A DNA stretch of 24,983 bases from Spirogloea muscicola. Lineage: Eukaryota > Streptophyta > Zygnematophyceae > Spirogloeales > Spirogloeaceae. Positions 1-24,983 of this stretch are shown here, in pieces. The position numbers and the translations under genes are program-made. Below the pieces are notes generated by a model that searched no databases, had not been told where the DNA came from, and saw only the letters and a list, made by a program, of their open reading frames with translations. Positions within the stretch are counted from its first letter, which is position 1, and each line of letters starts with the position of its first letter. Location of the stretch: contig WELB01000119.1 in assembly GCA_009602725.1 (NCBI GenBank), positions 216,409 to 241,391 on the forward strand. The letters are read 5' to 3'.

Positions 1-16
1 AAAAAAAAAAAAAAAC

Positions 17-808
17 TGGATCACCTCACACGCCGTGGCCAGCGCCTTCAGCATCAGCTCCGAGGCCTTTCGGACGTTGCTTCAACTCTTCCTCGGCCTC
101 CCACCTGACTGCCTGATTGGGGTGCGCCAGTGTGAGTGCGGCTTCCGTGCAGAGAGTGCTGAGCTCGCCGCTCACATGCTGCGATGCCCCACTGGACCAG
201 AAGTGGTGGGCATCCAAAACCTCCTCCGTGATGCTCTGGCGGGTTTGATGCGCGACGCGGGGTACCGTGCGGTCGTGGAAGTGAACAACATCATGCCTAT
301 CACCACGGATGCCCAGGGACGTCATCATCGCCGCACGCTTGACATTGTGGGCGTGCAACCTGGTGGAGGACCAAGGGCTTTGGTCGATATTGTGGTTACG
401 GAGGCCCATAAAATTCCAGCATCGACGCACATCGTTGGCCACGCAGTGGGCAGTGCTGAACAAAGAAAGTTGCAGCACTACTCCGATTACCCCCGATGTG
501 ATCAGCTCTTGCCAGCGGCAATCGACATCTTTGGCTGCTTAGGTCCTCGTTTCCTTACTCTCCTTCAAAAGATAGCCAATCTAGGCTACACACGACATGC
601 AGATATATTCCCGGCTGAGATGGGCTTGCCAGCGGCTTATCTGTCGTTGTTGCGACGACGAGTTTCGGCCTGTTTGCAGCGTGCTCAGGCTAATGCTTTG
701 CACCAGAAAGCTGGGCGAGCTCTAGTTGGTGGCAGAAGGGCTTCGTATCTGCCATCTAGTATCCAGGCATCGGTTAGCGACCTTTATGTTTTGACCCGTG
801 GTTTCTGA
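17..808 (+). CDS. C-terminal part of a non-LTR retrotransposon polyprotein (CCHC-like motif + restriction-like endonuclease)
   Basis: The frame is open from the poly(A) run at the window edge to the stop at 806-808, so this is the 3' part of a longer ORF; no true start is visible. Counting from the GTG at 35, a motif C33-x-C35-x11-H47-x3-C51 is followed by an RDAL...AGY helix, then E82, D103 (TLDIVG) and D118 (VDIVVT). A K/Y-containing segment (QRKLQHY, about 143-149) comes next, and the protein ends SDLYVLTRGF. This order (Cys/His motif, then a PD-(D/E)XK-like nuclease, then an Arg-rich tail) is what I know from RLE-type LINEs, where the nuclease nicks the target DNA. The same C-terminus recurs elsewhere in the window. 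The reverse transcriptase itself would lie upstream, outside the window. Activity of this copy cannot be judged. The exact clade (R2-, NeSL- or Utopia-like) is not decided. Confidence 0.8.
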   Translation, partial: WITSHAVASAFSISSEAFRTLLQLFLGLPPDCLIGVRQCECGFRAESAELAAHMLRCPTGPEVVGIQNLLRDALAGLMRDAGYRAVVEVNNIMPITTDAQGRHHRRTLDIVGVQPGGGPRALVDIVVTEAHKIPASTHIVGHAVGSAEQRKLQHYSDYPRCDQLLPAAIDIFGCLGPRFLTLLQKIANLGYTRHADIFPAEMGLPAAYLSLLRRRVSACLQRAQANALHQKAGRALVGGRRASYLPSSIQASVSDLYVLTRGF

Positions 809-5666: not shown

Positions 5667-8787
<3,121 letters not shown>

Positions 8788-9370
8788 CGGCACCGGCGGC
8801 GACGGCGACGGCGGTTGCGGCGGCGGCGGCGGCGGCGGCGGCGATCAGTGGCGGCAATTGGAGACCAGCGGCCGGGAGGGCGGGGACCTCCCTCCTCCCC
8901 CACCGGGCCCACCTCCCTCCCCGCTGGGCATAAAGTAGCGTGACCAGGCCACTCGCTTCGCGGCCCCGCAGCGCTAAAGCGGCTCTTGGCGCGCGGGCGG
9001 GCCTCTTCTTGTCGGTAGACCCCCGTGGGGGCTCCGCGGCCCATGTCCCCCACCCGGCAGACGGTACCAGCCGCCGTTCAAGCCGTGCCCAAGCCGTCGC
9101 GGCGGGCGCTGCACATGGGCCGTGCCGGCAGGAGCCTCGTTACGCCCCTCCCCCGACCCCGTGGGTCCACGTGATTGAGGCAGCCCCGGTGCGTCAGCGC
9201 GCGCCGACCCGCCACCCGTGCCTGACGCCATGACGAGGTGACGCGGTGATGCTTGCACCCAGATAAGTGACTCCTCCCTCCCAGAAAGAGCTCGCCCATT
9301 GTTGATAGGGGCTCCCTCCCTACTACCCTGCGACTGCCCCCCTGCGCCTTCCCGCCCTTTCAGACCTCCA
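8788..9370. other. GC-rich upstream region of the CtpA gene
   Basis: The region begins with CGG/GGC repeats (about 8797-8845) just upstream of the protease start and continues as GC-rich sequence to about 9240. Several ORFs cross it on both strands, but none shows a conserved motif or codon pattern. It most likely holds the CtpA promoter and 5' UTR. I see no convincing TATA box. Confidence 0.4.
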
Positions 9371-10905
9371 AATTCATTTTTTGGGCTGGCCAAGAACAGC
9401 CATCGCCCTCCACTGGAACAGGATTTCTTCGTCTTCATTGAGCGAGGATGACTCATCCAGTAAAGGGCGTCGGCTGTGGGCTGGCCTCTCACAGCCATCG
9501 CCGGTATGTGCTTTCCGATCCTTCTGGACCTTGTTCGTTTTGTTCGTGGGCTAACTTTCCAGAGCCTCGCTCCCCTTCATAGAGCTGCTTCATTCTCACT
9601 GCAGGCCCGAATATCAGCTGTGCAATTGGGATACTCTCATCGACGTCTATAAACTTGACGTCTGACTTCTATGTGTGTCTACGATTTGCAGAACTGGTAG
9701 AAATTCGGCTGAACTAGTGTGAGCGTTTTGAAACAAGAGCGGTAGGTGACGCCGGCCCCAAAGCTCGGACAGAGTGGAGTAAACAGCGACGGCGCACAAG
9801 GCCTCAAGAACAAGAGTGTCGCTTCTATCAAACGGACTCGACAGAGCAGCAGTTCTTTCAATTGGGGCGAGGACTACAAAGGGTCAGCCCACAAGCAGAA
9901 GACAAGGTTGGGCTGGCCTCTCACATTGCTGTACATTACATTGGTAGAGCTGCTTCTCTTACTGTCCAATCTTTTCGGACCTAATTCAGACCTTATTTCT
10001 GGGCTGGCCATTCTCAGCGATCGCCTCTACGTTCTCTTTTGTTCATTACTTGAAGTATGTGGCTCAGTGATATTGAAACAGCTTTGCAATGTAAGTTAGT
10101 GGCTGTGAGAGGTCAGCCCCTGATATTGTTCAAGGTCTTGAAGTGATAGACAGTAAGAGGAACAAGAAGAAGAAAGTGGCTCTCACAAAGGGGGTGAGGG
10201 GCTGTGAAAATCAAATGTGAGGAATAGCTCTTCAATCAAAATTAACGGCTGTGAGAGGCCAGCTCAAGAATGGACATAATGGACTACTTATGTCCAGGCC
10301 TGGGGGTGGTTACGGCTGCTCAAGAGGGGAGGGCTCGCCCACAAAAAAAAGAGGGGCTAGCAAAAGCAGCCCAAAAAGAGGATACTGACCAGAGAGGAAA
10401 TTGAGCACCCAGTGGCCACTTGAGTCGCTGTGTGCACTAAAGCTTTTCTGGCCCCTTCGACCTTTGTTCATACTTTTCTGGGCTGGTCAATCCCAGCCTC
10501 GCCCAACAGGAAACGGCTTTCTCTTTCTTCTCCGTCATTGTGGCACCCTTCGACCCTTAGTCAATTCTCTTCGGGCTGGCTTTTCACAGCCCTTGCCCCC
10601 GTTGGGAGAGCCACTTCTTTCTCTTGTTAGGAGGAGACGCTCTTCCGAAGGAGGGCGATGGCTGTCATTGGCCAACCCAGAAACTTATGAACAAAGGGGC
10701 CGGAAAAGAGAGAGAAAGTGCGCGCCCATAGATAGGAAGGGCTGGCAAAGCCAGCCCAAAAAAGAATGGGCAATGTCCAAAGCCAAAGAAAGAGGAGCCG
10801 GAAAAAGCGAGAAGTGCGCACCCATAAAGAAGAGGGGCTGGCAAAGCCAGCCCAAAAAAGAATTGGACAATGTCCAAAGCCAAAGAAAGAGGAGCCGGAA
10901 AAGGA
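9371..10905. repeat. Cluster of dispersed hairpin repeats (LINE 3'-tail family)
   Basis: Twelve stem-loops of GGGCTGGC-loop-GCCAGCCC type lie here. Plus orientation: 9383-9401, 9478-9496, 9910-9925, 10001-10020, 10480-10498, 10573-10592. Reverse orientation: 10101-10119, 10248-10264, 10353-10372, 10660-10678, 10740-10757, 10835-10853. Better copies are flanked on the 5' side by GGCCCCTTCGACC...CTTTTC and on the 3' side by CTTGCCCC..TTGGGAGAGCCACTTCTTT. The same unit forms the 3' UTR of the LINE copies at 21.4-23.4 kb. The mixture of orientations suggests repeated independent insertions of short LINE tails into one another. No protein gene is supported here. Confidence 0.75.
10708..10901. repeat. 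Tandem duplication of a 97-bp hairpin unit
   Basis: Two head-to-tail copies (about 10708-10804 and 10805-10901) share GTGCGC-CCCATA, the perfect stem GGCTGGCAAAGCCAGCCC, AATGTCCAAAGCCAAAG and GAGGAGCCGGAAAA, with only a few differences. The high similarity shows a recent tandem duplication or two insertions at the same point. They precede the LINE C-terminus at 10953 and read as its 3' UTR on the minus strand. Confidence 0.75.
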
Positions 10906-10952
10906 CTACACTACAAAACACTGCAGAACACAGAGACGATGCAGAGGGAAGC

Positions 10953-11165
10953 TCAGTACCCACGAGTGAGCAACATCAGGTCTGAGTAGCTCGCTGCAGT
11001 TAAAGAGGCACTCCGCCGAGACCCAGAGGCGGCGGCCATAGCACGGCCTGCTCGCGTGTGGACGGCGTGGGCAAGGGAGCGTTGAAGCGATACGGCCAGG
11101 CGCATGCGGAAGACTTGTGCGAGCGAACCGGCGGCGTTGAAGCCGGGGCTCGGCCCCTGGCAGAC
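10953..11165 (-). pseudogene. Truncated LINE C-terminus (LLTRGY end)
   Basis: On the minus strand this codes FNAAGSLAQVFRMRLAVSLQ, then RSLAHAVHTRAGRAMAAASG, and ends SDLMLLTRGY. It matches the C-terminus of the LINE copy at 21738-21910 (FNAAGSWAQVYRMRLSVSLQ...) almost residue by residue. Nothing of the nuclease or reverse transcriptase remains, so it is a 5'-truncated copy or a broken relic. The frame itself is intact to the stop. Hairpin units lie directly downstream (lower coordinates), as expected for its 3' UTR. Confidence 0.75.
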
Positions 11166-11221
11166 CCGACCCGGAAAAGCATTCATGCACATAGCGACTC
11201 AACTGGTCACTGGGTGCTGTG

Positions 11222-11356
11222 ACCACTTCTTAGCAGCCGCAGGTCAGAGATTCTAGTTTCCGGGTGACGGGTCCCTGACTATAGCCAGGAGGCTGCAGCC
11301 GAAGCGAGACTGGTACGCAGATGCACCGCGCGTGCCATTGACCTCTGCAGCGATAG
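11222..11356 (-). pseudogene. Second truncated, frameshifted LINE C-terminus
   Basis: The minus strand codes LSLQRSMARAVHLRTSLASA up to a stop. After a frame change it codes ISDLRLLRSG, matching SLQRSMAHALHLRAGRALAA and SDVRLLTRNY of the copy at 21738. It sits about 60 bp upstream (in element orientation) of the relic at 10953-11165, so two LINE ends lie head to tail here. The stop and the frameshift mark it as dead. Confidence 0.65.
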
Positions 11357-11365
11357 GAAAAAAGG

Positions 11366-11725
11366 AAACCCTTTTAGATTTTGGAGGCGGGACCCGCCCT
11401 GCCCCACGTGCGCAGCTTGCCGGCGGCCTGCCTTTTGGCCCCCCCCTCCCGGTTTGTCGAAAATTTGAGCAGTCCTCCCCTGAGGGGTCCCGCCACCGAG
11501 CCGCCAGCGTGGCGCCGACGTGGCGCCACCGTGGCATCCCCCTCGCTCCGTCGTGGCGTCACTTCCCCCCAGGCAGACGCGGCCGCTGGCCCGGCTGCGC
11601 CGCCGCCGCATTCCCGCCGCCGCCGCCGCCCCGCCGCCGCCGCGAGCAGCGCCGCCGCCGCCGCGAGCGGCGCGCCCCGCCATTTCCATCCTCTCCCCTG
11701 CCGCCGCTCTGCGAGGACGCCGGCG
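11366..11725 (+). other. GC-rich 5' region of the FUSC-like gene
   Basis: This stretch just before the ATG at 11726 contains repeated GTGGCGCC/GGCGCCAC words (about 11509-11540) and long CGCCGC runs (about 11595-11670). The frame of the first exon is open upstream but has no earlier ATG, so the stretch is more likely promoter and 5' UTR. The GTGGCGCCAC palindrome at about 11520-11529 might bind a factor; that is a guess. Confidence 0.4.
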
Positions 11726-14700
11726 ATGGCCCGCTCCGTGCACTGGCGGCTCTTCCAGCGGCGCTGCGCCGTGGCCCTGCGCACCGGCCTGGCCGCGCTC
11801 CTGGCCGGCGTCCTCGTCTCGCTGGGCAGCCTCAGCGCCTGGATGGTCGTCCCCTTCTTCTCCGCCGTACTGGCCATCCTCATCACCGGTGCGACGTCCA
11901 CTTCCTCTGGCTCGACTTTGGCCAGGGCTTGAGCCTTCTTCTGCTTCTGGCGTCGCTCTCGAGGGCGGGCGACAGACGGGCAACGGCTCCCACGGCTGTG
12001 TCAAAACGACGTTGAATGACGACTCGCAGTATTACTGCAAAGGGGTGGTGCTGTCTCGGAGGTGCTTGTTGGGACGCTGCTCTTGGGTCCCTGCCAAGAT
12101 CAGCCATCCATCATCTAAAGTCCCACTTCTTAAGAGCTTGACAGCAACCTCGGCTGTTCGATTCACGGTTGTCACTCAGTGACTGCTTCTGTGGCAGATG
12201 AGACTCTTGGGAAGGCACTGAAGAACGCTGTCCTGCTCACCTGGGGCTGCTTGGGAGCTGCGGTGAGCACTCCCTCGCTGCTGCTAAAGACACTGGCTCT
12301 GTTTGAGATCCTCATCAAGTACCTCGAGATGGCACCAAAGATTGGAATGAGAAAGACCTCTTGGAGTCCAGCACATTCTGTCCTCCCAATTCAATGAGTG
12401 TTGCCTGTCTTGACACCTTCTATGTTGCTTTGCGCTTGTGTGAGATTCCAGTTTATGACAATCACAGTGCGTCTGCACGCTTTACTGTTGCCGGTAACAA
12501 TGTTGCAATATCTTGTGCTCATATATGTGCCAGTTGACGGCGCTGCTGGCACGTCGAATTCTTGGGCCATCTCGGGGCGCAATGCTTAGTACTCTGGCTG
12601 CAACCAGCTTCTTGTTCTCCTAGTACGCTCTCTTGCCTTGCCGCCAACTTGGATAGATATGCACCATGGCACATCGTGGCTTGCTCACATCAGGCTCGGC
12701 ACTTACATGCCGATACACTTAACTTGCTAAACCTTAGTACTTTGAAGTGGTTTATTAAGCTCCTGCTGCCACTCTTGGGAGCTATGGCTCATCAGCCCCC
12801 CTCTGCACTGCCAGCCCGGACGTGGACGTGCTGGTAAAGAAGATTGCTCTGGCATTTGGAGCCATCACATATGTCATGTTCGCCTCTGTCCAGTCCACCC
12901 CACTGCTCTTTCCCCTTCGTCTGGTGGGTGCCTTTGCTTATCTGCTATCGCAACAGTGGTCCGAGCTTGGCGCACTAATTCAAGCTTACATCTATGAGCG
13001 ACTAGAAATTTAGACTGATGATACTCAGTCAAGCTCTGCTACACTTTGCTCATAAATCAGGGTTACGTCACTCTTGTTGTTTCTAGACTTGTGTGCCTTC
13101 CTTGGTTCTTATATTGGGCCCCCCAGAAGCTTGCCGGTGAGGCTCAGCAGTGAGTGCAATGGGTCCAAACATTGTTTCTCTGTGAAGCTCACCAAAAGTC
13201 TGTCCATAGAATAAAATGTGTTGCTGTGGCTGCAGTGTGCAACTGGTCTGGCTGGTGCAGCATGCGCAATCGTAGCGATGCTCCTGCCTATTCCACAGCT
13301 AGCATATGTGGAGGTCAGCACTCTTTACACGTCCTTAAGCAAAACAGCTCAGCCGATTCCTCCTTTCTACTGATCAGATCAGATTGCTTCTACTGCACTT
13401 GCTACCTCTATCTAAGTGTCTACTCCTCTCAGCGATGCTGATCAGATTGCTGTCTACTCTCTTGATATCTCCAATCTTGTGCATCTTTTCCTTCTGTAAG
13501 TCCACTGCAAGTCTATGACAATCAATTGAACAATGAGAACACTGTTGACTATATGGGATCTGCATGTTCATTTGAAAGTCTCAAAGTAAGGTCAACTCAC
13601 AATACCTCCTGCAATTTGCGAGCAACTTTGCAGGTAAAGAAGCGCTTGTTGTTTGCAGCCCAATGTGAATCTGCCCTCCTCAAAACTCTATTGGTAAACT
13701 GAAATCGTATGGAAACCCTCTGCTCTTGGAAGACTGCCCTGATCTTAATCACCTTCCTCTATCACCATCCAGCCCTGACTACAAAGAGCATTCATCTGGC
13801 TAATTTCATTTCCAAGTGTGCAGCCTTGGTAGGTCAATTGGCACAAAAGTGAGACATGCATAAAGAAGCAATGTACACTTGTAATTTTCTCTAATCACAT
13901 GTACCCAAGATTCAATCTTCCAGGATGCCTTTGGGGCCGATGATGCTCGGGCGCTTGCCTTCATTGAGATGCACGTCAAAATCCTAAGCAAAACTGCATC
14001 CTCAAATCTTGTCAGCTTGAAGGTACTTTGTAAGTGCAGCTTCTAGGCATCAAGCAAGTGCGCTCTGAGCTGCACAACATGCGAAAGGCCTCATGCAGCA
14101 AAATCAAATTTTGGAGCATCTGATGCATCTGATAGCTTTAGGTGGTGCCATTGAATTATGGGCGCTGCAGCATATATGTGTTGCTTACTAAGGTCTTTGC
14201 ATCGGCCAAGAACATGTAGGAGCGCGATTTGGACCTGAGCTGGGAGCTTTGGTTGTATCAGAAACCCCTTCAGTCATTCCGGCGTCTTATGAAGGTGTCA
14301 ACCCCTCTTCTCACCTTCATCATTTTCGTCTCCTGCCCCTTGCCTTGTCTCATTGTCCTTGATTGAGCACATGGGTTTTGCCAACCAGTCCAGCTAAGAT
14401 AGCCATTGAGCGCACCCTGCCATGCAAAGATCTGCCTCTAAGAAGGTACAGTGGAGATGATGCTGATGCTGATCAAGAAGCGCATGCAAAGCTCTCTTTG
14501 TGGAGTTGCCCACCTGACATTACTTCCACTTTGCCACGCTTTCCTCCTTCCTTGCAGTTGCTTGATGCTCTGATGATGCATTCAGCTGGTATGGAGCTGG
14601 CTCTAGCTAAAGGAGAGATTCTGCACAGTCCTCGGGCATTGCGGTGCCTCTTGCGGGAACCTCTAAGTGACCTCTCCAAGTTTGGAGCGCTTGCTCTGGC

Positions 14701-17700
14701 AGCTGCCATCAATGATTTTTGGAAACCCCACTGTAGGTGCTATCATCCCTGTCAAGTCCAACTTTTGCAGTCTCGTAGGTGTCGGCCGTTGTATCGAAAA
14801 CGGAGCAGCAATAGCCTTCTTATTATAGGAGTCTCACTTTGAGCAAGTTCATCTTGGCAAATTGCAAGCTGTAATTTTGCACAAATGCTTCTTGCCCACC
14901 TGATGAGCTAGCATGCCTATGAAGCAGCTGCTATTCATTGTTGTGCTTGGCTCTTCTTGATCCACTTGCACTTCCCGCCGCAGCCAGGGTGAGGGCAATC
15001 GAGGTAGTGAGGCTAGGAAACGAGCTACTGCAACAGTTTAATCACGCACTCAGGCGGGCCAGGGAAGTAGCTTACTATCATCTACCAGCTGACAAGGAGG
15101 ACAGTCCCGTTCAAAAGCCAGCTGCAAAGGGTAGCGACCAATGTGAGGAGGAGACCGCGCCCACAAACACACCCAGGTTTGGTGTCCAACTTCAGCTCAT
15201 TCACTTGTCAGAGGCAAAAGGGGCGTGTCTGAACCATGAAGTTGCAATTGTGTGCAGCCCTCTTGCTGCGTCTGAAATCTATGCAGCAGGCAAGAAGCTG
15301 GGCCTGATTGCTAACGACATCATCAATGTGTCTGCTAACAGCAATCCTCACCGTGGCTTCTCAGTCTGGTAGATTCACAATTTTTCATCTTCAATGCAAA
15401 GCACTTTGTGATGGAAATCCTGCATTTCCTGGAAGAGACAGCTCTACCAGGAGAGCCTTCTGGTGAAATACGCTATGTCAGCCTGTCAGCAACAGCAGTG
15501 TAGTTTGTAACATGAAGGCTATTGCACAACTGTCTTCCACCACCTTCTTGAAAAGGGCGCTGTATTGTACTTGAGGACGTTGGCTTACTGTTGACTATGT
15601 ACAGTACATTGATGCTAGAGTCTTGGCTAAGATCTGGGCTTTTCCACTGCATGCCAGGCAAGCGGAGAGAACTTCACGTGGTCGACTCGATGTACGACCT
15701 GCAAAACTCTGAGGTTCCAGTTACTGTCAGGCCTGAGGTGGAGGAGCCCTCAACTCTAGGGTCATCCAGTCATAATTCAGCTGGAGCAGCAGAGACTCAC
15801 TACTGCGAAGGGAGCAGGTGGCACCAGACAAGGAGAAAACCACAACAACCATGGCGGACATGGTGGCAGGCGCGCAAGTGGCCGCAAAAGATGACCTTCA
15901 AGCTCAATACGAGACGACTTAAGGTTGGCAACTTTCACTTGTTCCCAGCCTGTATGTCCACTCATGGTTGCCCATCGTGAGAAAGTTGTCTTCAGCAGCA
16001 TAATAATGTTGTAGGAGGATCTCTTGTGCAGCATACACATATTTGAGACTGAGATTGTTGAGCAAATTCGGACAACTGGTTGTCGGTGTGCTATGATGAT
16101 ACTACAGCCTCCAGCAACACAAAGCAGGATACGCTCCATATATCTTGACGAGTAAGTGTTGTATTGAGATTCTTTCATGGGTTGCTGTGCAGTCCTCTGC
16201 AAAGATTGCGGTGTCCATGGTCATCTCAGCTATCTTGGGGGACCTCATTACCAAGCCTGGCTTCTGGGCTCCTGTGACTGTTGCGTAAGCATGTTGCAAT
16301 TACATATTCACAAAAATACCCTCAAGTAGCCTCAGGTGCAGGCAGTCGTTCTTTGTATACGTCTGCAGAAGAGCAATACACCAGATTGACCTTTATTCAG
16401 CTTGCAGGCAGGCATTCATGAGCAGTCGGTCTCCAGTAAGTAAAGTATGTCCTGCTGAGGTTGTGCTTGCTGCACTCAGCTCTGATGACGACCCTGCAGG
16501 TTCGTCATAGGGGGACACCAGGGAGGTTCTTTTCAAGTGTCACTGCTGCGTCTCCAAGTAAAGCTCATCTTGCCTTCTTCACCACTGGGCCTCACCTTCC
16601 TTCGAGTAATTATCAAATATTGAAATCTTTGAGGTCTGAAAAGCCAACTAACATTGTATGCAAACCTCATCAGTTGTCAATTACTGGCAGATGATTATAG
16701 ACGGCAATCTAATCGCACTGAGTTCTCTGCTTCGAGCCCTACAGGGGACAGTAGCTGGAGCTGTTTATGGCTATCTTGCGATCCTGCTTACGCACACTAG
16801 TCAGTGGTTGATCCTTGCGGCCCTTGTTCCATGGGTGGTGCTCTCTTCCTACATACGGTACAGGTAAGAATATCTTGCCCATGCGGCTTATCCATCCCTC
16901 CCCTCTTTGTCTTTCAGCCATGCCTATTAGCCGAAGCTTCACATGTGACAGATGGGGCTCTTTGTCACTGGGCATTGCAAGGCAATGAATGTTGCTAGAG
17001 AATGTCATTGCATTTGTGCTTCTCTTCACTGATGGACAATTTGAACAATGTGGTGGATTGTTGTGCAGTAAGGCTGTCGGCTATGCTGGTATTGTTTCAG
17101 CTTTCACAGCTGCCATTATCATGCTCGGATATAGAACAGCTGCACTGAACGTCCACGACTATGCTCTCAATCGCATTTCTGAAGTATCAGCCAATCTTTT
17201 GCATGCACCATGAGATCTACTACAAGTAGTACGCCTGCTTAGCCTTGTAGCAAATGCCTGATCGTTCATTTGTCCTGCAAGGGCCGCCAGAGGCGTTTCT
17301 GTCATTAGCATGGAGTGCAACATTATACTTTGCTGAGTGAATGTATGAGATTGGCTTCATCTTGGCTTCTGTGCTTATCAATTAGATGCTGTTCTGAAGG
17401 CTATGTACACCTTACATCATTCTTTGTCTTGGCAGACATGCACAGGAATCACGTGCTTCATTGTGATAGAGGCTCTGCTATGGCCCCACCGAGCAGTCAA
17501 GCTGGTCAGGCAGGAACTGGTGTCTTGTCTATCAAATGCGAGGCGTTGCTTTTCAGCAATTGTTGCCTCCTACATGGGCCAAAACTGTTCCAGGTTTGTT
17601 GACTTTGTCGGACCTGGTCAAGGTGGTGCTTGAGGTGATCTGGTCTTCTGCAGTTGTTTATTGAGTGGAGGATGCACCGCTGCTTCCTTTGCAGAATGGT

Positions 17701-19985
17701 CGTGTTGTCGTCCATAGCCTTGCACACAGTGTTTAATCCTTTCCTTGTAAAGCTGTGCAGCTGCCACAGTAGGTCCATCGAGATGGTGGCAGAAGTGGAG
17801 GAGGAAGTGAGCAAGAGCATTCTGCTTCAGGTTAGATGAATGTGCTCTACAATCTGCACTGACCTCTTTAAATGGAACTCCTCCTTAGTGAACACCTACT
17901 CAGGGCATCTTTGTGGGCTGCAGACCATCTTGACGGAAGAAGCAGCCGCTGAGCCAGATCTCTGGCATGCACCTTTTGCAGCGCAGGTGATTTTTGCCCC
18001 CTATGTCATATCCTTCCAAGTAGGTATATGCTCATGCTCAGAGATGTGTAATTTGAAAGGTTGTAATTTGTTGCCCTGTCATCCAGATCTACAGCCAGCT
18101 CGTCAGCAGCGAAGGTCGCATCTTACGCATGCTTGTGAGTGATACTTCTAACCAACTCTCAGCTTCATCATCAGCCGTTTACTTGTTAGAAGCAGATGGC
18201 CAGACGGTTCTCCTGCAAGAGGCCTCAGACTGCTTCCCTTTTGCAGTTTTTCATGGACTGTTGCTTGAGGGCAACTTGCAGCTGGTCTGCGGACGGTCAC
18301 TTTGAGAAACTCGTATACCCTCTCAGGTATAAGATATTGATATGAAGTTCGACTTGCTGATGCAAACCCCTGCTAATCTGTGCTGCTATGAAAAGTTCCT
18401 GGTCTAACCACGTCTCTCAGGTCATTCAAGTTTGGCGGATGTGAGCATACTCTTACCACTGCCTGTGCAGGTCTTCACTGCTGACATTAGAGGCCGAAGT
18501 ACTCCAGGTTCTGGACCGCCTGCTCCAGGCACTGGAGCCCAGCCTCACCCCCTTTGGGTCACCCTCATTGCCGCATACACTGGCAGCAGGCCAGCAGCCA
18601 TGTCCGCCAGGAATTGAGACTAGTAGTGATGCAGCATGCCAGTTGCAAGATGGTAGGCTGCAACATGACCTCGGTGGCCACTCTCCTCCAGCATCAGAAA
18701 GGAATCCTGGGGCTGCAGGCTCCAGGTCATACAGGGGAGCAAGCTCCCGCGGCAGAGTCAAGAGAAGGGAGGTGACTGTTAGTGTCGCAGCAGATGCTCA
18801 CCCGCTCCTCCTCCTAGGGCAGCAGAAGGCCTCCCGTCCACTAGAAGCTGAATCGGGTCATGACGCTGCAGTGGATGCCCTCCAGGCCTTTGAGCTCAGG
18901 TTTGTGAGCAGCAGCACTTCTCTTGTTCTTTGCTTTGCTTGCATGACTTGCTGTCTTTTTATTCATTATGTTCTGGCAAAGTCTGCATCCTTGTGGCGTG
19001 AAGTCGCGGAGCCTGCATTTAGAAAGAAAACTTTGAGTCACCTTACCTACAGAGATTGAGCAGACTGATGAGTCTTGTGGGACCATTGAGGTTGCTCAAA
19101 TCTATTATATAACCCATTGCTTGACCTCCATGTAGATTTATGCTTTTTGCAGGTACAATGAGGTCATTGGTGGTCTGATTGCAGCAAAGAGGGAGGATCC
19201 AGCTGCTCAGATTGTCAACAATTCTGTTATGCTCTCCTTCAACGCCCTGGTTTTCAGGTTGCCCTGGCCGCAGTCTTCGACTCCTCTAATTAAGTCATTG
19301 AAGTCTACAATTGGATCCTGGCAAGTTGCGGCAGATAATTTCACAGTATCTCTCACAAGAACGTGTGGGCATACGTCGCAGCATGCGCACGCTGATTAAG
19401 GAGACAGTGGATTTGGAATATGGCATCTGTGAGCTACTCCAGGTACGGAGTATCGCAACATTGCACCTTACTTATAGTCAACTTGGCGTCAATTGGGTTG
19501 CTTGTCAGCCTTTTTCATTTCCTACTTTACATCCTCAGCCAACAATAATGTTCTTCAGCTATTATACAGGTACAGGTTGAGCAAGTTTGTCGGCATGGTT
19601 GGGCCAGTCAAATTCACGTGGCCCGTTGACAATGCAGGTGGAGAGGCCTGTGAATCTGGACGAATTGTCTGCTGCTTATACCGCAGAGACCTTGCTTCCA
19701 ACCTATGCACCCAGTGCTCAGCAAGAGGACAATTGATCCGTTACGTATGACTGATCTTCTGAGCATTTGACAGGCGCTCTTCATGTGGAATCCGATGCCA
19801 AAGTCATTCTGCAGCTTTGGCTTGGTTATTTGGCTTCCTTGTAAGAGAAACCACATCCCATGCCAGCCTCAAAGCCACCGCGCATCTGCCCTTGTGATCA
19901 TACTGCAAACACATAGTCTCCAGGGGTCTGCAGAATGACATATGACAATGTCTTGGGGAGCTCAATTTCCAGCCCACAACCCTAG
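11726..19985 (+). CDS. FUSC/ALMT-like multi-spanning membrane protein (aromatic-acid exporter type)
   Basis: Exons: 11726-11888, 12198-12262, 12534-12622, 12815-12923, 13236-13313, 13634-13693, 13787-13828, 13924-14022, 14220-14294, 14558-14732, 14984-15176, 15365-15462, 15658-15923, 16193-16284, 16500-16557, 16745-16863, 17069-17183, 17436-17593, 17770-17830, 17924-17986, 18087-18134, 18247-18326, 18471-18899, 19153-19257, 19304-19442, 19559-19637, 19774-19840, 19934-19985. Every junction is GT-AG and in phase, 3177 nt, 1058 aa. The least sure starts are exons 7 and 25 and the last exon. Module 1 (residues 1 to about 165) has hydrophobic segments in exons 1-5, ending LLPIPQLAYVE. A soluble stretch follows. 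Module 2 (about 505-650) has KIAVSMVISAILGDLITKPG, WAPVTVAFVIGGHQGG, GTVAGAVYGYLAIL and IIMLGYRTAALNVHDYALNR, then EALLWPHRAVKLVRQEL. This two-module plan is typical of fusaric-acid-resistance/AaeB/ALMT relatives. Substrate and membrane are unknown. Confidence 0.8.
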
Positions 19986-20800
19986 AGGTATAGTGCTCTT
20001 CTCATATTATCATAACTGCTGTATGTGTAGATTAAGCACAAGTTGAGAGCATCAACCTGGCACATTATCTGCTTGTTAGCCAAGCACTTATGAATCTCAA
20101 CCACAAGGAGGGCTACATAATCCACCATCATGTGCTTGATCTGGAGGAGCTGCCAGTCAAAATGCTGTCAGCTGGCTTGGTGAGCATTTGCTTATCAGCT
20201 AAATTGTGCTTCTTGGTGGTTGAGTGTATTGATACAGTACCCAGTCATATTGGGAGTTGTATGACAGAGTGAACTTTGCAAGGTTGACAGTCAGACTGTT
20301 TGTGTAAGGTGAGATTGCAAGAGCTCCAACTTAAGCAGGCCGGGATTGCTTTGATGATGCCAATGCCTTTTCTGGCTAGAACGACTTCAACCACTTTAAC
20401 TTTACGACCCTGTCATCGCTGCATCCTTTGTACTATATCTCAGAAGTACAGAACACAACAAGCCTGGCTCTTATGCCCAGCCACAGTGGATCCGTGCTCT
20501 TCCGACTTCTCTACCCTAGCAAGGTAACCAATACTGCCAGCTCACTGAAATTGCTCAAAGGATGATTGATGAGCATTTTTCAGCAAACTATACAAAGGCC
20601 AATCCAGACTGGTACTGGCCAGTCAATGTGTTCCAACGGATGACCTTGGCAACAAGCAGCACTGTCAAGGCTAACAATATCATGCCTCCGCTTGAGCGAA
20701 AGGGTATTGACAAACAACAATCTTGGCCATGCTTATTCTCACCAGCGAGATTACGTTGGCAGTTGTGACCAATCCCTAACAAGTTATACCATGTACCAGA
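19986..20800 (+). other. 3' region of the FUSC-like gene with unassigned exon-like ORFs
   Basis: The first part is probably 3' UTR of the upstream gene; a TGTAA lies at 20303-20307. Three exon-like pieces do not fit that gene: 20090-20179 (starts MNLNHKEGY, ends at a GTGAGC donor), 20380-20523 (NDFNHFNFTTLSSLHPLYYI..., ends at GTAACC) and 20541-20768 (LTEIAQRMIDEHFSANYTKA...). I do not recognise them. They could be a small unknown gene, decayed exons or chance ORFs. Confidence 0.35.
20303..20307 (+). terminator. Candidate polyadenylation signal (TGTAA) of the FUSC-like gene
   Basis: TGTAA is the usual green-algal polyadenylation motif. This one is the first in the plus orientation after the stop at 19985, giving a 3' UTR of about 330 nt. 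The pentamer is short and can occur by chance. Confidence 0.35.
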
Positions 20801-21600
20801 TTTTGATGCTTCGGACCTTGTCCATTCCCTTGGGCTGGCCTCTCACAGCCACCACTGCATCTTGGAAGCACAGTTTCTTTTCTGCGTGGCACAAGCGTTT
20901 CGGTAGTGACAAATCTTGGTGGTAATACAACACCATCTTGAAGTCAGAAATTTGGCGGCGATTGAACAATGTACTGGTTATTGCTCATGGATCGAATCAC
21001 ATCATGCGTTGCTTTGATTGTGAACGTGGTAGTCGTTTTGTTCCTTGACCTCCAGCCAGCAAATGCCGATCGCAGTACAATTTTGGGCTTGCCTTTCGGG
21101 CTGGCTGCTGACAGCCATTGCCCCCTTTGGGAGAGCCAGTTTCTTCCACAGCCATCGGCCTACTTTGGAAGACCTGCCTCTCATTCTTCTGTTGCTCGCC
21201 ACCCCGCGGAGCTGCTGCGAAGAAGCGCGGGCGGCCTGAAGCGGGCGGGGGGACGGTGCGCGCGGCAAAGGGGCGGAATCGGCTGGCGCGCCCACTGGCA
21301 GTTGGGGGCCAGCGCCGCTGCGCCGCGTGGCCGCCGGCCCGCCGCGTTGCCTTTCAGAGAATACGTGGCACTCCCAATGGGGGCAAGGGCTGTGAAAAGC
21401 CAGCCCGAAAAAGAATCGACAAAGATTCGAAGGGGCCAAATGATGGAGGGGCCTAAAAAGGCGCTAAGCAGCTACGAAGGGGCCTGAAGATGCTGTCAGA
21501 ACGGGGGAGGATGGACCACTAAGTAGTTACGAGTGAGGAGTTGCAAAGGACAGACCAGCTGCCGAAAAAGTATCCCCCTGACGAAAGAAGAGGAAGAAGT
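20801..21600. repeat. LINE-tail hairpin units and a decayed LINE end
   Basis: Hairpins lie at 20832-20850 and 21098-21116 (plus orientation) and 21387-21406 (reverse). The first is preceded by CGGACCTTGTCCATTC, also seen before the hairpin at 24085. The third belongs to a minus-strand LINE tail whose coding end survives at about 21515-21590 as degenerate sequence (CTCACTCGTAACTACTTAG). A GC-rich block at about 21190-21350 interrupts the series and matches nothing I know. No cellular gene is supported. Confidence 0.6.
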
Positions 21601-21805
21601 GGCTCTCCCAATGGGGGCAAGGGCTGTGAGAAGCCAGCCCGAAAAGAATTGACAAGGTTCGAAGGGGCCAAACTACGAGCTAAGCAGCGACTGCGGGGCC
21701 TGAAGAGGCTACGGCAGAACGGGGGAGGATGGACCGCTTAGTAGTTACGAGTGAGGAGCCTCACATCCGACAGACTAGCTGCCGGTAAACTATCCCCCTG
21801 ACGAA
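21372..21805 (-). repeat. Tandem pair of LINE 3' ends (about 230-bp units)
   Basis: Unit 1 (about 21372-21590) and unit 2 (about 21606-21805) each contain CCCAATGGGGGCAAGGGCTG, the reverse hairpin (21387-21406; 21621-21640), TTCGAAGGGGCC, GAACGGGGGAGGATGGACC, AGTAGTTACGAGTGAGGAG and TATCCCCCTGACGAAAG. The offset is 234 bp at one end and 220 at the other, so small indels separate them. Unit 2 is the intact end of the LINE at 21738; unit 1 is a diverged copy. Read on the minus strand, one LINE 3' end follows directly on another. Confidence 0.75.
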
Positions 21806-21847
21806 AGCCGGAGGCCGCAGCGAGAGCACGGCCAGCACGCAGATGCA

Positions 21848-22425
21848 AGGCGTGGGCCATGGACCGCTGGAGGGAGACGGACAAGCGCATACGATACACC
21901 TGAGCCCACGAGCCAGCGGCGTTGAAGTCAGCCGGCTCACCGCGCCTGCGGGACACAGCGCGCCGTGCAAGCCTGGCCAACAGGTCGAGCCAGTGGGATC
22001 CGAGAGCCCCATGCACGTCCACAGCCAGGGGGACGAACTCGTCGGCAGCCGGGTGGTCGGCGTGTTTGGCCGCCTTGCTGCGAGCGGCCTTTGCCGCAGC
22101 GTGGCCAGCCCGCGAGGCAGAAAGCCCCGGGTTGGAGCGGTCGACCACATCAGTGGTGACCACATCGGCAATGATGCGCCCGCCACCGCCCGTCGTGGAC
22201 GCCACCAGAACGCCACCAGGCGTGGGCCATGGATCGCTGAAGGGAGACAGACAACCGCATACGATATACCTGAGCCCACGAGCCAGCGGCGTTGAAGTCA
22301 GCCGGCTCACCGCGCCTGCGGGACACAGCGCGCCGCGCAAGCCTGGCCAGCAGGTCGAGCCACTGGGACCCGAGAGCCCCGTACAAGTCCACGGCCTGGG
22401 GTACGATCTTATCTGCAGCCGGGTG
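21848..22425 (-). repeat. Internal direct duplication in the LINE (two 208-bp copies, 370 bp apart)
   Basis: Segments 21848-22055 and 22218-22425 align without gaps, with about 19 differences in 208 bp (roughly 91 percent identity by hand count) and a 68-bp identical core (21898-21965). Both code HPAAD..VP.AVD..GALGS, WLDLLARLARRAV and FNAAGSWAQVYRM. Many differences are silent or conservative, so the two may derive from different active elements rather than from one recent duplication. The 370-bp offset is not a multiple of three and breaks the reading frame. Confidence 0.8.
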
Positions 22426-23193
22426 TGACGCGGCGCGTGTGGAGTCCGTCGGCCCTCTGGAGGATGGGCATGACCAAGAATTCTCCATGGCCACCGTGTA
22501 TCCGGCCTCCTGGAAGATGCCGAACATTGCATCTCGGAGGAGGTCGCGAGCACTGTACGTTCGCGTCCAGTGGCGCAGCGGAAGATAGGACAGGGCGGGG
22601 GGAGACCCAACAGGCGATGGGTGGTCGTACGGAAGAGTTCATCCGGCTTCCTGAGGGCGTCGTACAGGGGGAGCGCGCAGAGCCAGGCTGCCACGCCAGG
22701 GGACGCGGCCGACAGCAGTCGAGCATGGCCTTGCACGTCTGTAGGAGGGAGGAGCTGCAGCGTGGCCGTGAAGGACGCCTTGTCGACTGCCGCCATGTAC
22801 CGCGCCTGCGCCTGCGAGTCGGTGGAGTGGGCAAGGTGGGCAAAATTTTTTTAAAAAATGTGGGCAAACGGGACCACGCTCTCAGGGCAGGGTGCTCCGC
22901 AAGTAACTCGTCTTGAGCTGAGCGGAGCGCCACCTGAAAAGGCAACGAGCCGGTCGCCACCTCCGCCACGGCCTGCTGCAGCATGGGCCGCCCATCGTGG
23001 AGGAAGCGCTGTGCCACCGACGTGGCGACCTGAGCCCAACTGCCGAGGAACGCTGGCCTGCAGATGCGAGTGAGCGAGCGGCAGCTGAGGCCGCCATGGC
23101 CGGGGGCAGAGTGGCCTGGTGCGCCGCAGCGGGCGAGTCGAGGAAGCTCGGGTGACGGATGAGGGCCGCCACGCTCTCCATGACGCCCGCGTC

Positions 23194-23406
23194 GAACTTG
23201 GTGTAGAGAGAAGGGCTCGCCCATTGAGGATAGGGGCTGGAAAAAGCCAGCCCAGAAAAGAGAACAAAGGACGAGAAGGGGCCAGGGGAAGTACGAAGAA
23301 CAACAAGCACTAAAAGAAACGAAGCAGCTACGAAGCACTCAGTAACCCCTGCTAAGTAGCCTCAGGTCAGAGAGACTGGGTTGCTGGAAGCGGGAACTTG
23401 GTGTAG
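23194..23406 (-). mobile_element. 187-bp tail-only LINE insertion with 13-bp target-site duplication
   Basis: GAACTTGGTGTAG occurs at 23194-23206 and again at 23394-23406. Between them (23207-23393), read on the minus strand, are the last dozen or so codons of a LINE (SLSDLRLLSRGY, stop), about 60 bp of 3' UTR, the hairpin (23234-23253) and the 3' end TCAATGGGCGAGCCCTTCTC. The target is the RT-bearing LINE; its frame codes YTKF at both copies of the duplication, as expected if the element landed in an intact ORF. There is no poly(A) tail. This fixes the element's 3' terminus and shows severe 5' truncation. Confidence 0.88.
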
Positions 23407-24022
23407 GCCTCCAGCACCTCGGGGCAGGGAGGGGTCGTCTGCGCCAGGCAGTGGGCACGCTGCACAAAGCATCTGGTGAGCATAGCAAGCGCCAGCTGCG
23501 TATCCTGCAGGGGAGGCGGGCCACCGGCTGGAGGTGCTCCAGGAGCCAGTCGCGCAGTTGCCCGTCGACGAAAGACGGTGTGCCGACTGGGACCCCCAGG
23601 ATGGTGAGGCCGCCTGGGGGAGTCTGGCACCCGGGCGGCAGGGGCAAGGGGGCAGGGAGGCCACGCGGGAACCACGCGATGCACTTCTCGGGCCGGGTGG
23701 ACATGCCGAGGGCGGCCAGCTGCTGCTGGAAGGTGGCGGTGGCTGCTGACACAACCCCTGGGCCGACCAGTGTGGTGTCGTCGGCGTAGGACGGCAGGAG
23801 GACGCCGGGGTGCGCTGCCGCAGTGGCCTTGAGAGCGCGGTTGTGAGCCAGCTCAAAGAAAAACCCTGCCAGAGTATCCCCCTGGCGTGTGCCAGTCCTC
23901 GACTGCAGCGTCTCCACCTCGCCACTCCCTGTCCGGCAGAGAAGGTCGTTGGGCTGGCCGTAGCCAAGGCGGAAGAAGGGAAGGAGGGAAGGGAAGGCCG
24001 CTCGCAGCTACTCGGCGATGGC

Positions 24023-24125
24023 GCAGCGCTTACTGCTGTCTAAGTCCTTAGCACTCCAACTCCTTCAGACCTTGTCCATTCTTTTGGGCTGGCCTCTCCC
24101 AGCCACCAGTTAATCTGGCAGCGCT
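24023..24125 (+). mobile_element. 87-bp hairpin element with 8-bp target-site duplication in the RT region
   Basis: GCAGCGCT at 24023-24030 and 24118-24125 flanks 87 bp (24031-24117) that contain CAGACCTTGTCCATTC and the hairpin GGGCTGGCCTCTCCCAGCC (24085-24103). The host sequence on the minus strand codes FNSVER before the insertion and CAIAE after it, which join in frame once one duplication copy is removed. The insert lies opposite in orientation to its host LINE. It carries no coding part that I can see, so it is a non-autonomous or extremely truncated copy. Confidence 0.75.
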
Positions 24126-24485
24126 CTACGCTGTTGAAGGCGTTTTGGACATCGACAGCCAGGACCATCCAGTCAGGGTGGAGATCCAGGGCCGCGCGGA
24201 CGCCGTGGACGACAGCCTCCCCGCCGCTGCGTAGCCCAGCGCCATATTGATGTGGGGCAAGGTGGGTCTGCGCCTGCCCGAGATGTTGCTGCCACAGCGT
24301 GCGGGCCACCAGCCAGTACAGAACCTCGCCGATGGCGGTGGGGCGGACTCCGCCATTGGCCTTGGCGATGGCGAGGAGGTTGCTGGAGCGGAGCACCGAG
24401 CGGGTGGCAGCAGGGACTTTGTCCTGGGCCACGAGCTGACAGACTTGGAGCAGCGCCTGGAAGTCGGAGGCCCATCTAACGACAC

Positions 24486-24657
24486 ACTGTTACCTTGGCC
24501 ACCTTAGCATTGCTTAGCATAGGGCTTCGTTTCACGTAACACCATCACTTTGCCCCCGGCGTGGGCAGAGTTTCCCCTCTCGCGGCAGCGCGATGACGCG
24601 ACCGCACCATTTCTCAGCACCAGCGGCCAAGGCCCGCCGCCCCTCGTGTGCCCGCCG

Positions 24658-24698
<41 letters not shown>

Positions 24699-24726
24699 AG
24701 CGTCTGAAGCGGGCTGGCGGGCACAG
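24486..24726 (+). other. Non-coding stretch with a CCG repeat before the deSI exon
   Basis: It lies between the RT start of the LINE and the acceptor at 24726. It contains (CCG)n at about 24651-24697 and ends CGGGCACAG, the presumed 3' splice site. No part of the missing N-terminal half of the peptidase (with the catalytic His) can be read in any frame. Confidence 0.5.
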
Positions 24727-24983
24727 GTGTTCGAGGAGGAGTGGTCGTTCGGGTACTGCGAGGCCGGGACGGGCGTCTTCGCGTGCGCGCCGCGGCGGAA
24801 CCCCATGTACACGTACCGCGAGTCCGTGCACCTGGGCGTCACGGCGCACAGCGCCGCCAAGGTGGCGTACCTCGTTGTGGAGCTCAAGCGCGAGTGGCAG
24901 GGCCGGCAGTACGACCTCCTCAAGCGCAACTGCAACCACTTCTGCGACGCCTTCTGCCAGCGCCTCGGCGTCGGCCGCATCCC
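24727..24983 (+). CDS. PPPDE/deSI-type thiol peptidase (DUF862), C-terminal exon, partial
   Basis: After an AG acceptor at 24726 an open frame of 85 codons runs off the window. It reads VFEEEWSFGYCEAGTGVF, PMYTYRESVHLG, VVELKREWQG, then YDLLKRNCNHFCDAFC and GVGRIP, a close match to plant deSI-like proteins. These are cysteine peptidases that remove SUMO or ubiquitin; the Cys of RNCNHFCD is the catalytic residue (codon 69 of this exon). The partner His lies in the N-terminal part (GVEVYG-type motif), which is not visible. That part must be in an exon beyond the LINE nest or be lost. Codon use is GC-rich, like the other cellular exons. Family assignment is firm; intactness of the gene is not. 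Confidence 0.82.
   Translation, partial: MFEEEWSFGYCEAGTGVFACAPRRNPMYTYRESVHLGVTAHSAAKVAYLVVELKREWQGRQYDLLKRNCNHFCDAFCQRLGVGRI

Follow-up and report, generated by a model that had tools for sequence, protein, structure and literature searches.

A hairpin in the 3' untranslated region of Spirogloea muscicola LINEs that may double as a target for their own insertion

A 24,983-nucleotide stretch of the Spirogloea muscicola genome (contig WELB01000119.1, positions 216409-241391; hereafter the window) carries numerous copies of a short hairpin that forms a constant component of the 3' untranslated region (UTR) in several related families of long interspersed nuclear elements (LINEs), which we label F1 (including F1a and F1b) to F4. 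LINE copies elsewhere in the genome have inserted into such hairpins within older LINE tails, and the hairpin loop is probably a preferred landing site, with LINEs targeting their own tails by target-primed reverse transcription. More tentatively, at a probability of about 0.4, we propose that this single 3' hairpin is a dual module, serving both as the RNA tail read by the LINE protein and as the DNA address for insertion, such that each insertion would create a new target and nested safe havens would accumulate.

The hairpin family was evident from two kinds of search. The pattern GGGCTGGC-N(0-12)-CAGCC matched the window 13 times (shuffle mean, 0.06), representing 11 distinct sites because two palindromic sites match on both strands. 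A covariance model (R1), built from an alignment of 98 copies collected by flanking anchors outside the arms, returned 22 matches at E<1 over the whole window. Fifteen of these reach E<0.01, and every one of the fifteen falls within or overlaps one of two clusters (nine at 9.38-10.85 kb and six at 20.83-24.10 kb). The initial annotation had counted at least 18 stem-loops in these clusters, in both orientations and with conserved stems and changing loops: both orientations are present, the arms are nearly invariant and the loops variable, and four weaker R1 matches bring the total there to 19, with three weak ones lying outside. Genome-wide (153.1 Mb in 471 contigs), the exact 19-mer GGGCTGGCCTCTCACAGCC occurs in 1067 + 1090 copies and in none when read backwards, the exact hairpin variant with TTTGCCAGCCC (F3) in 1721 copies and that with CTCTCCC (F2) in 1793, the three exact variants together amounting to 5671 copies. 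The covariance-model scan that the annotation had proposed was also run on ten arbitrarily placed 5-kb stretches, where R1 yielded seven matches at E<0.01 in five of the ten; this density scales to ~21,000 hairpin copies in the genome (range, about 9,000-44,000), with the training copies of R1 including some from the window and some later counted in the genome scan. A further 105 copies, selected by looser rules that nevertheless required both arms, were left out of the analysis because of that requirement.

The C-terminus encoded by the LINE in the window has at least 170 matches in the genome (115 of 22,615 first-look candidates were scored), and we studied the 30 best, 29 of which have a recognisable C-terminus, one being the window's own locus. 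The hairpin begins 99-100 nt past the stop codon in 27 of these 29 loci, compared with 2 of 660 random 150-nt windows, so that the annotated association of the hairpin with LINE open reading frames (ORFs), and its place in the LINE 3' UTR, hold strongly across the genome. In the two remaining loci (L022 and L033; L-numbers denote loci fetched from the genome), similarity to other copies breaks off before the hairpin; elsewhere it mostly stops near 150 nt past the stop, beyond GAGAGCCACTTCTTC, and F1 elements end in the pyrimidine tail CTTCTTC, 28 nt beyond the hairpin. The window's F1a LINE shows this arrangement on the minus strand: its 3' UTR (21585..21740) consists of the stop, a hairpin at the same distance (R1 21597-21656, E 3.1e-15) and a CTTCTTC end, and its body (21738..24432) is an interrupted copy with a reverse transcriptase (RT) region and an endonuclease-like C-terminus, as recognised by RVT_1 matches at 23339-23917 (E 1.4e-6) and 24040-24432 (E 0.012) and by C-terminus matches. 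When read by eye against L030, the pieces form a single copy that extends, 3' UTR included, from about 24432 to 21585. Its C-terminal region holds a direct duplication of 208 nt at 91% (21848-22055 / 22218-22425), and the ORF there leaves the frame of its intact relatives.

LINE tails fall into at least four related subfamilies, F1 (loops TTCTCA and TTTTCA), F2 (loops CTCTCA and CTCTCC), F3 (loop TTT, perfect 8-bp stem) and F4 (loops TTTT and TTTTT), which share the layout TTGTC(C/A)ATTCTTTT, hairpin, TGG.(C/A)G.GC and pyrimidine tail. Their 3' end is defined, and their 5' ends vary in F2, F3 and F4 copies (n=16, 11 and 5 examined); because longer F2 copies also extend, as read by eye, into the LINE coding end, tail-only copies are truncated LINE ends. 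Two of them in the window lie between target duplications: a 187-nt F4 LINE 3' end with hairpin inside the F1a LINE (23207..23393, minus strand; R1 E 3.1e-12), flanked by the 13-nt duplication GAACTTGGTGTAG (23194-23206 and 23394-23406), and an 88-nt F2 tail with hairpin inside the RT region (24030..24117, plus strand; R1 E 4.6e-11), flanked by GCAGCGC (24023-24029 and 24118-24124; 8 nt with the next T). The tails thus combine target duplications, 5' truncation and a fixed 3' end, as LINE insertions do, and their earlier description as by-products agrees with the variable 5' ends and with these duplications of 13 and 7-8 nt. Short, numerous and palindromic copies in both orientations might also be expected of a DNA transposon, Helitron or intron-like element with terminal hairpins, an origin that is very improbable since it is already contradicted by fixed 3' ends and variable 5' ends, as well as by the target duplications and by longer copies that enter the reverse-transcriptase ORF.

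According to the initial annotation the hairpins follow directly upon four separate LINE ends, which does not hold as worded. Within the window the hairpin stands after or within two minus-strand LINE ends (stops at 21738 and 23339) and a LINE 3'-end fragment at 21351-21590, the last with an F1b tail at 21351..21428 (minus strand; R1 21363-21423, E 1.3e-13; also recovered as a fold), whereas no R1 match follows either the LINE end at 808 (plus strand) or a weak inverted relative near 8158 (minus strand), and the cluster at 9.4-10.9 kb consists of tails in both orientations with no LINE ORF end seen there. The sequences at 2-808 (plus strand) and 8158-8206 (minus strand) belong to a related endonuclease-bearing LINE family, whose ORF ends in LTRGF followed by GCGGGTCAAT and whose 3' end is not followed by the hairpin; it could serve as a natural comparison when asking if LINEs of this group need the hairpin. 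Separately, L035 and L036 are double-tailed LINE copies downstream of the stop, with a hairpin tail and, after it, part of a second tail (from TCACAGCCC to CTTCTTC). In L035 an apparent duplication lies, by eye, outside the second tail, as if a source copy within another tail had been read through, and telomere-like CCCTAAA repeats occur beside the LINE insertion ~220 nt past the stop.

Many LINE 3' junctions lead directly into the right arm of another hairpin, and in nine copies, drawn from three samples (5 + 1 + 3), target duplications place the LINE inside an older one. Five come from the 29 loci above (L012, L023, L027, L029 and L031): the LINE in L023 is flanked by GGGCTGG-CTTTG and CTTTGCCAGCCC, those in L029 and L031 similarly, L027 has the duplication TCTCACAGCC, and in L012 the LINE entered the opposite strand of a hairpin loop. 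One further case, in which the left arm is degenerate, was found among 23 ends on contigs C1 and C2 (L063). The remaining three emerged from 20 junction loci with a juxtaposed right arm, fetched from 100 listed of the 257 such ends described below. Six of the 20 (L072, L073, L074, L078, L084 and L089) were flagged by a script as having a left arm at their 5' boundary, and reading by eye added two (L081 and L090); L073, L074 and L084 each carry the duplication TCTCCCAGCC, and because their truncation lengths differ (164, 91 and 119), the same F2 hairpin position was hit independently. In these three F2 hairpins the duplication runs from the left edge of the loop through the right arm (GGGCTGGCC^TCTCCCAGCC, with at most 2 nt of ambiguity). 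The left arms of L072, L078 and L089 (script) and of L081 and L090 (by eye) come without a clean scripted duplication. When 66 distinct F1a ends were collected by fetching loci regardless of their flank, a rough script assigned eight to entry into a right arm, four to the reverse strand (two of them convincing by eye) and one to a double tail.

If the hairpin were purely a template-recognition stem-loop of the kind found in stringent LINEs, such juxtapositions would have to come from clustering and template switching. This explanation gains from the 27 of 29 LINE ends that carry the hairpin, from the existence of some double-tailed copies and from the 12 of 20 juxtaposed ends that lack a left arm, but the nine copies with a left arm upstream, a right arm downstream and target duplications are not template switches, and a displaced control in the same neighbourhood is 3.5 times lower; on balance we consider it doubtful.

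That control comes from 1795 exact F1a 3' ends, in which the arm motif CAGCC[AC] follows within 0-12 nt in 257 cases (14.3%) and at 26-38 nt in 74 (Fisher p about 5e-27); the displaced interval itself contains insertions elsewhere in tails. As background, the motif occurs 0-12 nt after CTTC in 1 of 426 cases at random loci, or 7 of 716 once the window is added, and after any base in 1417 of 81,056. F4 ends show it in 73 of 1444 (5.1%, without a displaced control of their own). Reading into GCCAGCCC is seen at 34 ends, most of them also among the 257, including 13 same-orientation F3 loops and 18 apparently reverse-strand loops. Double-tailed sources were considered as the entire cause of juxtaposition and rejected: exact double tails occur in 16 places, a lower bound that leaves inexact ones uncounted, and are too few to account for 257. 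A general preference for pyrimidine tracts combined with LINE clustering, with nothing specific to the hairpin, would explain why T is the first flanking base at 78% of 55 non-hairpin ends, why other pyrimidine sites in LINE tails are also hit (e.g., CTTCAGGCCCC) and why F4 reaches only its modest, uncontrolled value; set against this, the F1a frequency at the arm motif far exceeds the 0.2-1.0% seen after CTTC and the 1.9% after 8-base pyrimidine runs, and we regard this explanation as unlikely.

In the alignment of 98 copies, 80.2% of main-stem cells are paired, and the covariation of this stem is no different from that of shuffled alignments (0.038 vs 0.036; 140 of 500 shuffles as high), with two pairs changed on both sides (1.8 shuffled) and, as the highest-ranking measure, 11 pair types (9.1 shuffled; 41 of 500 as high). 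The initial annotation had named the lack of compensatory stem changes as evidence that would refute it, and none were found beyond those in shuffles; because of this, the claim of a conserved structure is unsupported. Anchors outside the arms were used to collect the copies, and yet the inner arms GGCTG/CAGCC hardly vary, which fits recognition of the sequence itself. A short second stem does vary in step between families (0.523 vs 0.343 shuffled; 0 of 500 as high), possibly from few independent changes among related sequences. An outer stem around the hairpin was predicted in 32 of 38 F3 and F4 copies, 9 of 40 F1 copies and 2 of 18 F2 copies (families assigned by a rough script rule) and was dropped as a candidate, being present in few F1 and F2 folds and giving no sign of compensation when family halves were swapped.

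The hairpin's role as an RNA template-recognition signal is plausible, and as part of the best explanation we infer that it may also guide recognition of the template. Near-invariant arms in copies found by outside anchors are also what a pure template-recognition function would predict, and stem-loops are essential in two zebrafish LINEs of the stringent type (PMC4176376), while the absence of main-stem covariation argues against that function on its own. The eel UnaL2 element, to which the hairpin had been likened, is a poor match: an Rfam scan of positions 9000-24983 at E<=1 detected no LINE RNA and one unrelated sub-threshold match only, the protein motifs resemble those of restriction-like-endonuclease LINEs, and Pfam recognises RVT_1 alone. 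Rfam includes the UnaL2 family.

It is also conceivable that DNA structure, rather than sequence, attracts insertion, in that the palindromic arms extrude a cruciform that is cut by a Holliday-resolvase-like endonuclease. Insertions do occur at the hairpin loop, and archaeal Holliday-junction resolvases have served as the basis for modelling the fly R2 endonuclease (PMC3636483), yet the perfect 8-bp stem of F3 received 13 F1a junctions (of the 34) per 1721 copies, or about 0.8%, and the F2 hairpin with CTCTCCC at least 11 junctions among the 100 listed of 257 per 1793 copies, or about 1.6% when scaled; these are rough counts made by reading lists, for families of different age. Cruciform targeting was rejected as per-copy use runs against it, leaving it quite improbable. 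Because stem strength does not raise use per copy, insertion is probably guided more by sequence than by stem strength.

The LINE protein resembles that of single-ORF elements with a restriction-like endonuclease (R2/NeSL-type). The open frame shared by L071 and L030 encodes a reverse transcriptase (RVT_1, E 3.1e-17 in L071), as expected of a LINE, and Pfam recognised no APE domain in its 1097 aa, the ORF start falling in a stretch of N; a Cys/His motif lies, by eye, near the N-terminus. In four families the C-terminus presents, in order, a Cys/His cluster, a DLV-type strand, GGG-x-R-x3-D-V, K-x2-[KH]-[YH] and G-x-x-W. The Cys/His cluster is invariant in five sequences of these four families, with the spacing CX1CX11-12HX3C, and a PD-(D/E)XK-like core can be read by eye (first D in 3/4 families, second D in 4/4, K in 3/4, G-x-x-W in 3/4), the first D and K being absent together in one family and the W in another. 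Restriction-like-endonuclease LINEs are described as having a CCHC knuckle CX2-3CX7-8HX4C, a GXW motif and a PD-(D/E)XK core whose catalytic lysine lies in KX2KY (PMC5678591). We speak only of resemblance because the knuckle spacing differs, residues are missing in two families and neither AlphaFold nor PDB searches confirmed the fold. A PHROGs search returned nothing. At a random locus, L041, a single 5-kb stretch contains another two LINE C-termini, diverged but with these endonuclease-like motifs, and from this pair the LINE group looks abundant and diverse.

Several points weigh against hairpin-directed insertion by such an endonuclease. AlphaFold models of the C-terminus (two window sequences) have a mean pLDDT of 34 and do not confirm an endonuclease fold, and in the PDB a sequence search found no match and a profile search two irrelevant weak ones. 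The 5' flank of L027 is a whole hairpin with an additional partial loop and right arm, so that its history is not simple. No left arm stands at the called 5' boundary of 12 of the 20 hairpin-juxtaposed ends, which could be due to nested events, boundary errors, double-tailed sources or template switching. Double tails inflate the count of 257 somewhat; a few loci in it are duplicates, and others match by chance (about 2% of any site). The background after CTTC comes from a small sample and rises to 17/709 when displaced. Finally, at non-hairpin ends, flanking bases past the second or third show little specificity.

A mechanism that would accommodate these observations starts with a nick by the endonuclease in the purine strand, across from a run of pyrimidines. 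The 3' end thereby released would pair over a few bases with the CUUCUUC end of the RNA and prime cDNA synthesis, a second nick ~6-13 nt away would generate the target duplication, and most copies would be shortened at their 5' end. The T that begins most flanks fits a primer on the purine strand, nicked across from pyrimidines, to which CUUCUUC anneals. The order of strands, priming by microhomology and the identity of the endonuclease are inferred. Because hairpin loops are pyrimidine runs, they would be good targets of this kind, and LINEs would land in each other's tails; repeated rounds would produce nested, head-to-tail and inverted piles of tails such as those in the window.

Like R2, R4, CRE, NeSL/Utopia and HERO elements, the LINEs described here appear to combine an RT with a subsequent cluster of Cys/His residues and with a C-terminus that is PD-(D/E)XK-like and has K-x2-[KH]-[YH], and share with them a target preference and variable 5' ends (PMC4640811, PMC5678591). 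Most restriction-like-endonuclease LINEs are target-specific, inserting into rRNA, spliced-leader, tRNA or U2 genes, microsatellites, telomeric repeats or transposons (PMC4640811); many insertion sites of the present LINEs are LINE tails, and the elements differ in preferring tails of their own LINE superfamily as target, in their Cys/His spacing and in that the preference is partial. With stringent LINEs (eel UnaL2, zebrafish ZfL2) they share a stem-loop near the RNA 3' end, but Pfam shows no APE (the ORF start being unseen), Rfam shows no match, and the loop doubles as insertion target. Alu retroposons insert into the tails of older Alu copies, and here, too, an old copy's tail supplies the target for new ones; the Alu tail is A-rich and its endonuclease of the APE type, whereas the tail described here is structured and non-polyA and is hit repeatedly at one position in the hairpin loop. 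Nested LINE copies are likewise found in the Zepp-type clusters at telomeres and centromeres of green algae, though we know of no hairpin-loop targeting by Zepp-type LINEs. Among the papers listed in literature searches, mostly outside subscription journals, none describes in its title or the start of its abstract a LINE that targets its own tail hairpin. Within that literature, what appears new is a LINE family with a preferred site inside its own tail hairpin, insertion into older tails being already familiar from Alu. Self-insertion has been described for Helitrons (PMC5148889).

The window has further hairpin copies. Near the F1a LINE, two tail-only copies lie on the plus strand at 20817..20876 (R1 E 3.2e-7) and 21082..21141 (E 2.6e-9). 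The cluster at 9.4-10.9 kb contains, on the plus strand, an old tail copy at 9365..9427 (E 0.0041), a hairpin with the exact motif but no more at 9478..9497 (E 0.028; also a pattern match), a tail copy with the variant arm GGGCTGGT at 10463..10521 (E 5.9e-4) and an F1b tail copy at 10557..10616 (E 2.1e-13). Its minus-strand members are old tail copies at 10076..10134 (E 0.0016) and 10222..10278 (E 5.6e-6), an F3-like tail copy at 10328..10388 (E 4.1e-5), a tail copy at 10634..10695 (E 2.3e-5) and a tandem pair of F3 tails spaced 96-97 nt, one with a perfect 8-bp stem at 10715..10774 (E 2e-12; fold z -4.9) and the second at 10811..10871 (E 1.6e-11). Elsewhere in the window, peptidase S41 and PDZ domains lie in separate open frames at 5667-7643 (minus strand), as in an intron-containing gene for a C-terminal processing protease, and at ~8640-8755 a long A-run, read as poly-lysine, is followed by one undetermined residue and possibly reflects an assembly problem.

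If these LINEs do have a preferred address in a conserved piece of their own tail, they would make their own target: every insertion would add a site, and genes may be spared. The arms could then stay invariant under two pressures at once, and the thousands of copies in this genome would provide a natural system in which to study how recognition of an RNA template can be coupled to recognition of a DNA target.

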